This document shows positions 29,492-30,529 of a DNA stretch of 64,000 bases, piece by piece. Positions within the stretch are counted from its first letter, which is position 1, and every line of letters starts with the position of its first letter. Source of the stretch: Planctomycetota bacterium. GTDB taxonomy: Bacteria; Planctomycetota; UBA8108; UBA1146. The translations under genes and the position numbers were made by a program. The notes below the pieces were generated by a model. That model worked only from the letters and a program-made list of their open reading frames with translations. It did not search any database and was not told the DNA's origin. The DNA lies in contig JAAZXB010000014.1 of the NCBI GenBank assembly GCA_014240375.1, positions 23,922 through 87,921 on the forward strand. Reading direction: 5' to 3'.

Positions 29492-29518
29492 TCTGGATCC
29501 GAGAACGAGTGAGAGTGA

Positions 29519-29550
29519 CGGCCCCGGGGTTTCCTCGGGGCCGTTTTTTT
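29519..29550 (+). terminator. Rho-independent terminator of the MFS gene
   Basis: Arms CGGCCCCG (29519-29526) and CGGGGCCG (29536-29543) are followed by seven T (29544-29550), separating the MFS gene from the selenoprotein candidate. Confidence 0.9.
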
Positions 29551-29617
29551 CGGGATCTGTGGCATTGATGGGAACGGCACGTGCCCGGACAGCGTCCGCT
29601 GGGGGAGGAGACCTCGG

Positions 29618-30529
29618 ATGAACCTATGCAGGATGTTGCTGATCGCCCTGTCCCTCTCCTCGAGCTTTCTGGTGGCCCAGGAGGCCGCTCCGGAGCAGTT
29701 CAAGTTCTCACTGCTGGGAAAGCCACTGCCGGAGTTGAAACTCGAGGAGGGCGATCGCTGGTTCCACGCCACCAAGGATCTATCTCTCGCTGCAACGCCT
29801 CTCACTGTATTGCGGCACGGCAAGCCGCTGCTGGTCGCCTATACGATCCCTGGCTGAGAGAGTTGTGCTCCGGCATTGCCCAGCCTGGTCAGGTGGCAAC
29901 AAGAAGTGGGACCCGAGTTCTTATCGTTGATGACCGTCTTCAGTTACTCGTCCAAGCAACCAGAACTGGTCCAGAAATACATCGACAGGAACCAGGTGAC
30001 CTTCCCCATCCTGTCGGAGCAGGCCATCAACCTCGAGCGTCACGGAGTGAAGGGGTTCCCGGCGGCCTTCTTTCTCGATGCCGCAGGCAAGGTGATCTGG
30101 CAGGGGATCCTGCCCCGTGCCTCCGAGTCGAATGACTATCAGCGCCCCTGGCTCGACGGGCTGTTGCGTCAGGCAGGAGTCGAACCGCCGCCGATCCCCA
30201 TCCGCTGGCTCGATTTTGACGATGGAGTCGAGGAAGCGCAGTGGACCTCGGAGACTCGACTGATCTTCGTCGAGGCGAACCGATGCGATCAGTCGGTACG
30301 AATCGAACGCTTGCTGACACAAGATGAAGAGATCGCAGGCCTGCTCGACGATTACATCCGGGTCAAGATCGATGGTCGAACTCAACTGGAGATCGTCAAG
30401 AAGTACCGCGCCCGCTGGCCCGGAGATCTGCTCATCATCGATGCCAAGGACCAGGTGCTCTATCGATTCTGGGATCACTACAAGGACATCCCTGCACTCA
30501 AGAAGGCGCTCTACGACCATGCCAACTGA
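29618..30529 (+). CDS. Probable selenocysteine-containing TlpA/thioredoxin-fold protein (in-frame TGA at 29855)
   Basis: Read straight through TGA 29855-29857, one frame runs from an ATG with GGAGGAG upstream to a TAA-type end at 30529, giving 303 residues. It has a signal peptide (MLLIALSLSSSFLVAQ) and a redoxin domain that reads LLVAYTIPG-U-ESCAPALPSL: the TGA falls on the first Cys of the CxxC motif, so UxxC with U80 and Cys83. KGFPAAFFLDAAGKVIW is the cis-Pro region. A second thioredoxin-like domain (about 200-303) keeps only one Cys. A SECIS-like hairpin follows the TGA. The alternative is two broken pieces or a nonsense mutation. It is probably a periplasmic disulfide or peroxide reductase. 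Confidence 0.82.
29876..29899 (+). promoter_or_regulatory. SECIS-like hairpin after TGA 29855
   Basis: Outer arms TTGCC (29876-29880) and GGCAA (29895-29899) enclose inner arms CCT (29884-29886) and AGG (29891-29893) with apical loop GGTC (29887-29890). The loop starts 30 nt after the TGA, within the spacing usual for bacterial SECIS elements, and a G lies in its first two positions as they require. The inner and outer stems are separated by an asymmetric internal bulge. Confidence 0.6.

Follow-up and report, generated by a model that had tools for sequence, protein, structure and literature searches.

A TGA codon at the catalytic-cysteine position of a two-domain ResA/TlpA-like protein in a planctomycete is very likely read as selenocysteine

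At a UxxC site, attack by the selenolate is followed by resolution by the Cys. UxxC selenoproteins of the redoxin, thiol:disulfide interchange and TlpA-like types are already known, and the table passages of PMC13188914 carry rows for them under PF08534, PF13098 and cd02966. The same passages list a Trx7/PDZ selenoprotein (NF041199) with a CxxU motif (PMC13188914), and passages of PMC4807772 report selenoproteins in other Planctomycetes. The locus described here lies in the window, by which is meant the whole 64,000-nt stretch of planctomycete DNA that was analysed. A TGA at the catalytic-Cys position of its ResA/TlpA-like domain is very likely read as Sec by the tRNA-Sec and SelB of the genome, giving one predicted exported protein with the active site U80-E-S-C83.

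This protein resembles the UxxC redoxin and TlpA-like selenoproteins of the listed rows in its thioredoxin fold, in a Sec at the first position of UxxC and in its likely thiol:disulfide chemistry. Unlike them, it has a second thioredoxin-like domain with a Cys in a CxQ[ST] motif, and the two-domain form is absent from the table passages of PMC13188914. With ResA, StoA and CcmG (PDB 1st9, 3erw and 2b1k) it shares the fold and active-site alignment of domain 1, and the CEPC of the ResA chain resembles UESC; it differs in the predicted Sec that replaces the first Cys and in the extra C-terminal domain. By name, the Trx7/PDZ selenoprotein likewise combines a Thioredoxin_7-type domain with Sec, but there the Sec sits in CxxU and the companion is a PDZ domain, whereas the protein described here has its Sec in domain 1 and a Cys in the Trx_7 domain. 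P0001, the sequence to which homologues are aligned below, gave no match to NF041199 at E up to 1. The protein is very likely a genuine selenoprotein, and it would add a two-domain member to the UxxC TlpA/redoxin selenoproteins already known; among the papers listed by searches of the openly licensed PMC literature, none dealt with the two-domain form.

The gene and its boundaries are made up as follows.

29517..29545, + strand: terminator-like hairpin from a consensus scan, downstream of an MFS-like gene and upstream of the selenoprotein gene
29601..29608, + strand: likely ribosome-binding site GGGGGAGG, purine-rich, ending 9 nt 5' of the ATG (by eye)
29618..30529, + strand: frame encoding the predicted 303-aa selenoprotein, running from the ATG to the closing TGA, with one internal TGA
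29618..29680, + strand: likely signal peptide, residues 1-21 (by eye)
29855..29857, + strand: in-frame TGA, codon 80, predicted Sec, aligned to the first Cys of CxxC
29864..29866, + strand: Cys83, the C of UxxC, predicted to be the resolving residue

The predicted active site, U80-E-S-C83, follows from translation of 29618-30529. A preliminary description of this DNA had proposed a single frame broken solely by a TGA at the site of the nucleophilic Cys, which annotation would split; the break is codon 80 (29855-29857), and mechanical ORF calling does divide the gene, into 79 aa (29618-29857) and 217 aa with a TTG start at 29876. Its further point, that the stretch after the TGA has no SD-supported start, agrees with inspection by eye, which found no SD-like run upstream of that TTG. 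Given the base composition of the window, the 223 consecutive sense codons 3' of the TGA would arise by chance with a probability of about 5e-4. The GGGAGG run at the likely ribosome-binding site is retained in the relative L020 (by eye). The hairpin at 29517..29545 is consistent with separate transcription of the gene; a promoter scan gave no match. The upstream MFS-like gene scores 31.6 against MFS_1, slightly under the Pfam cut-off of 33.4. Between 30545 and 37308 of the window, three long ORFs on the - strand each contain a D/N-rich repeat close to the C terminus; it begins with RGDxNxDG, and we take it to be dockerin-like; the first of the three had no Pfam match.

Two thioredoxin-like domains are recognized in the product.

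29705..30184, + strand: domain 1, residues 30-189, ResA/StoA/TlpA-like thioredoxin fold (Pfam PF13098 over its cut-off, PDB profile matches, AF2 model and fold search)
30059..30061, + strand: Pro148 (in GFP), the residue expected to be the cis-Pro of domain 1 and the same in every row of alignments A1, A2 and A3
30206..30523, + strand: domain 2, residues 197-302, Thioredoxin_7-like fold (Pfam PF13899 over its cut-off, AF2, PDB 2kuc profile match)
30284..30286, + strand: Cys223 of the CxQ[ST] motif, where a thioredoxin has its active site, after strand 214-219 and before helix 224-235 (secondary structure)

Profile alignments with StoA and ResA match U80 to their first Cys, and the cis-Pro region that had been placed in the same frame corresponds to GVKGFP148, judged from its sequence to hold the expected cis-Pro. 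Domain 1 unites [CU]xxC, the expected cis-Pro and a thioredoxin fold, the features of a TlpA/ResA-like oxidoreductase. No NCBIfam model reached its cut-off for the protein in a profile search, StoA (NF041202) scoring 25.6 bits vs a cut-off of 210 and ResA (NF002854) 20.7 vs 170. A first AF2 model was poor (mean pLDDT 49.2); a second, built with 12 sequences, was good (mean pLDDT 81.5). The second thioredoxin-like domain goes beyond the preliminary account, and its Cys223 is invariant in all 10 rows of alignment A2. The rows of the fold-search alignment cover mostly residues 25-189, so that domain 2 is barely tested there.

The genome of the window (3.39 Mb, 120 contigs, 94.8% complete) encodes the Sec machinery that the preliminary description had proposed to search for, selA, selB, selC and selD all being found. 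On contig C32, selA (220922; 424.8 bits vs a cut-off of 22.8), selD (222151; 344 bits vs 125) and selC (223252-223345; 67.5 bits vs a gathering score of 47) cluster within 220922-223345, with selD between the other two; the tRNA-Sec has a UCA anticodon. SelB lies at C32:385289 (390.9 bits vs a cut-off of 242.25). selD carries an in-frame TGA of its own, in SCAGU-AAK (L017 at 1531), making SelD itself a predicted selenoprotein. Its sequence fits the UxxK motif that passages of PMC13188914 list for selenophosphate synthetase and acts as an internal positive control. With Sec machinery in the genome and a TGA at the catalytic-Cys position, that TGA is very likely read as Sec.

Relatives of the gene were sought in 198 genomes, its own included, and 84 gave matches. 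A hand count of the 122 match rows found 46 with in-frame TGA (one with two), 2 with TAG, none with TAA and 74 free of stops. The 70 loci examined comprise every row with TGA (46), the 2 with TAG and 22 of the 74 stop-free rows, the window's own gene being one of them; L022-L024 were treated as the same genomes as L018-L020, and only L021-L024 enter the 70. In the U80 column of the alignment to P0001, 45 loci have TGA, 20 Cys and 1 Ser, and 4 are gaps. Two of the gap loci (L033 and L094) have a TGA directly upstream of the match and the other two (L046 and L089) are unaligned there. Cys at the TGA position, which the preliminary description had named as a thing to look for in homologues, does occur: the final tally is 47 TGA, 20 Cys, 1 Ser and 2 unaligned (n=70), so that 67 of the 70 loci have one or other of TGA and Cys. 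Neither of the two findings that the preliminary description had said would speak against Sec, a genome lacking tRNA-Sec or SelB and relatives all with a stop or a non-Cys residue here, was obtained. The C83 column holds Cys in 68 loci, TGA in one and a gap in one. In-frame TGAs within matches number 47, of which 45 fall at U80; the two exceptions are at C83 in L048 and at another site in L047. The homologue L048 (genome G195) has two TGAs, in UDTU, one at each active-site position.

These counts bear on the most durable of the alternatives, in which the TGA is an ordinary stop and translation yields two separate products, an exported peptide of 79 aa and a protein of 217 aa (TTG 29876). Annotation pipelines do read the gene this way. 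In three protein searches the database relatives of the two-domain protein were C-terminal pieces, with two exceptions: P0010 is an N-terminal piece running out of frame, and P0013 is a single-domain TlpA protein of 165 aa with Cys. The pieces P0003-P0006, P0011 and P0012 (217-223 aa) begin at a start codon six codons beyond the TGA position. An ordinary stop would, however, cut the thioredoxin fold at its active site; the Cys column has TGA in 47 of the 70 examined loci and TAA or TAG in none, and the TTG is the one noted above as having no SD-like run upstream. Separate translation of two pieces is accordingly very improbable.

Sec decoding of codon 80 also fits the distribution of tRNA-Sec in part. 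TGA occupies the U80 position in 36 of the 198 genomes (own included), and in two more if the codon just before the match is counted. The tRNA-Sec tool's cut-off is passed by 153 of the 198 genomes, and tRNA-Ser passes it too; a strong tRNA-Sec was defined as a best E-value of at most 1e-10, a line of our own lying in the gap from about 58 to 54 bits among the listed rows, which 135 genomes satisfy and 63 do not. Among matching genomes, TGA stands at the column in 33 of 66 with a strong tRNA-Sec vs 3 of 18 without (one-sided p=0.0099, with unfetched rows and the two before-match TGAs scored as no TGA), a p-value that, like the others given here, overstates independence because the counted sequences are related. 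Restricted to the 53 genomes that hold the examined loci, the association is not significant (p=0.19). Among the three genomes with TGA but no strong tRNA-Sec, G057 and G089 have SelA; the third, G005 (L026, a 41% TGA homologue), has neither a strong tRNA-Sec nor a SelA match, in an assembly 82% complete.

Pseudogene decay or assembly error as the source of the stop is less probable still. The six genus and family genomes with the two-domain gene are all drafts of 50-290 contigs, but the same TGA recurs in four same-genus assemblies, the three relatives being 83-91% identical, and in two members of the same family, G006 (60%) and G005 (41%), matched across both domains. Within the genus, dN/dS 3' of the TGA is 0.16-0.31 (6 pairwise comparisons among 4 sequences): purifying selection acts downstream of the TGA. 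The TGA-bearing two-domain form was found in the genus, G006 and G005; G002, of the same genus, had no match to the gene. Three named records encoding the protein are from Planctomycetota assemblies, and the three protein database searches yielded no full-length member of the two-domain family with Cys. Reassignment of UGA, or its readthrough as another amino acid such as Trp, would account for a TGA in frame but is hardly credible, given terminal TGAs in 2 of 6 neighbouring ORFs and in the selenoprotein gene itself, 21 aligned TGA-free loci with 20 Cys and 1 Ser and never Trp, and Sec machinery encoded in the genome.

One candidate SECIS element was located 3' of codon 80.

29876..29899, + strand: candidate SECIS hairpin UUGCCCAGCCUGGUCAGGUGGCAA, with a GGUC apical loop at 29887-29890, 29 nt 3' of the TGA

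Passages of PMC13188914 give the bSECIS constraints as a loop of 3-9 nt, a G in the first two positions, a distance of 16-37 nt after the UGA and an MFE <= -7.5. The SECIS prediction suggested by the preliminary description succeeds in that the candidate fits them (GGUC loop at +29, -8.5 kcal/mol), but the test does not discriminate, as 210 of 300 random in-frame control positions pass as well. Compared with shuffled sequences, the 75-nt stretch that spans the TGA and continues beyond it shows no gain in folding stability (z +1.09). Because generic folding was uninformative, TGA loci were compared with Cys homologues. SECIS-like stems are longer after TGA than after Cys codons (47 vs 20 loci; one-sided Mann-Whitney p ~1e-6), and at least 5 of 6 pairs form in 11 of 47 TGA loci vs 0 of 20 Cys loci, counted per sequence. 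A fixed-register pair test was discarded: cells were paired at 0.50 in TGA vs 0.40 in Cys loci, sliding by +1 raised both (0.535 and 0.575), and sliding by -2 also raised the Cys value (0.425). Since the slid control beat the fixed register, only per-sequence counts and stem lengths were used. In the register of this comparison the stem of the window gene is broken by a mismatch after only 4 consecutive pairs, and in L018-L020 the hairpins of lowest energy in the scan differ from the candidate.

A CCUGGUC-AGG core is common to the window gene, distant TGA homologues and selD. CTGGTC stands at exactly +27 in 10 of 45 TGA loci, down to 26% identity, although the window gene and its genus account for 4 of these loci; most TGA homologues outside this group have other hairpins, or none found by the scan. 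Just 3' of the TGA, 0 of 15 amino-acid-conserved codons vary synonymously vs 53 of 223 elsewhere (p=0.02; for a 14-codon stretch, 0 of 13 vs 53 of 225, p=0.034), and a 16-codon invariant run like that around the TGA arises in 713 of 20000 shuffles. The Arg codon of the LVRW motif is AGG here, a codon used for 12 of 129 Arg in six neighbouring ORFs. Two SECIS-core patterns gave 9 and 2 matches in the window's genome vs 3 and 3 in a reversed control, selD being one of the first set and the window gene one of the second. By eye, the other eight matches of the first set (two overlapping) showed no convincing selenoprotein frame; L111, of the second set, was viewed as DNA only.

In the proposed mechanism, the predicted SECIS-like hairpin (GGUC loop, +29) would recruit SelB with Sec-tRNA-Sec, and the gene would encode a thiol:disulfide oxidoreductase that is secreted or resides in the envelope. 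The U80 selenolate would attack disulfides of the substrate (alternatively, peroxides or sulfenic acids), leaving a selenenylsulfide for C83 to resolve. Domain 2, with its single invariant Cys223 in CxQ[ST], would serve either as a monothiol partner or for substrate binding; a relay between the domains, a substrate and an electron donor are presumed. A broader reading, held tentatively and somewhat on the doubtful side, is that of a planctomycete Sec-only two-domain selenoenzyme with Cys223 as an internal relay, part of a phylum-wide, largely mis-annotated UxxC expansion that partly uses the shared CCUGGUC-AGG core.

Elsewhere in the same genome, 6 of 14 AhpC/TSA-family matches have one in-frame TGA (L113, L114, L116, L117, L118 and L120), five of them in UxxC (UGAC, UGPC) and the sixth in TPGUTAQC. 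Downstream of every one of these TGAs, a permissive stem scan found a hairpin with 5-8 pairs.

The gene adds a well-supported selenoprotein whose database relatives have been reduced to pieces. Taken with the TGA at the same position in 36 of 198 genomes, the 6 of 14 AhpC/TSA matches suggest that the phylum's use of selenium in redox proteins probably exceeds what annotations record. The pairs of TGA and Cys homologues permit direct tests of why Sec is retained.
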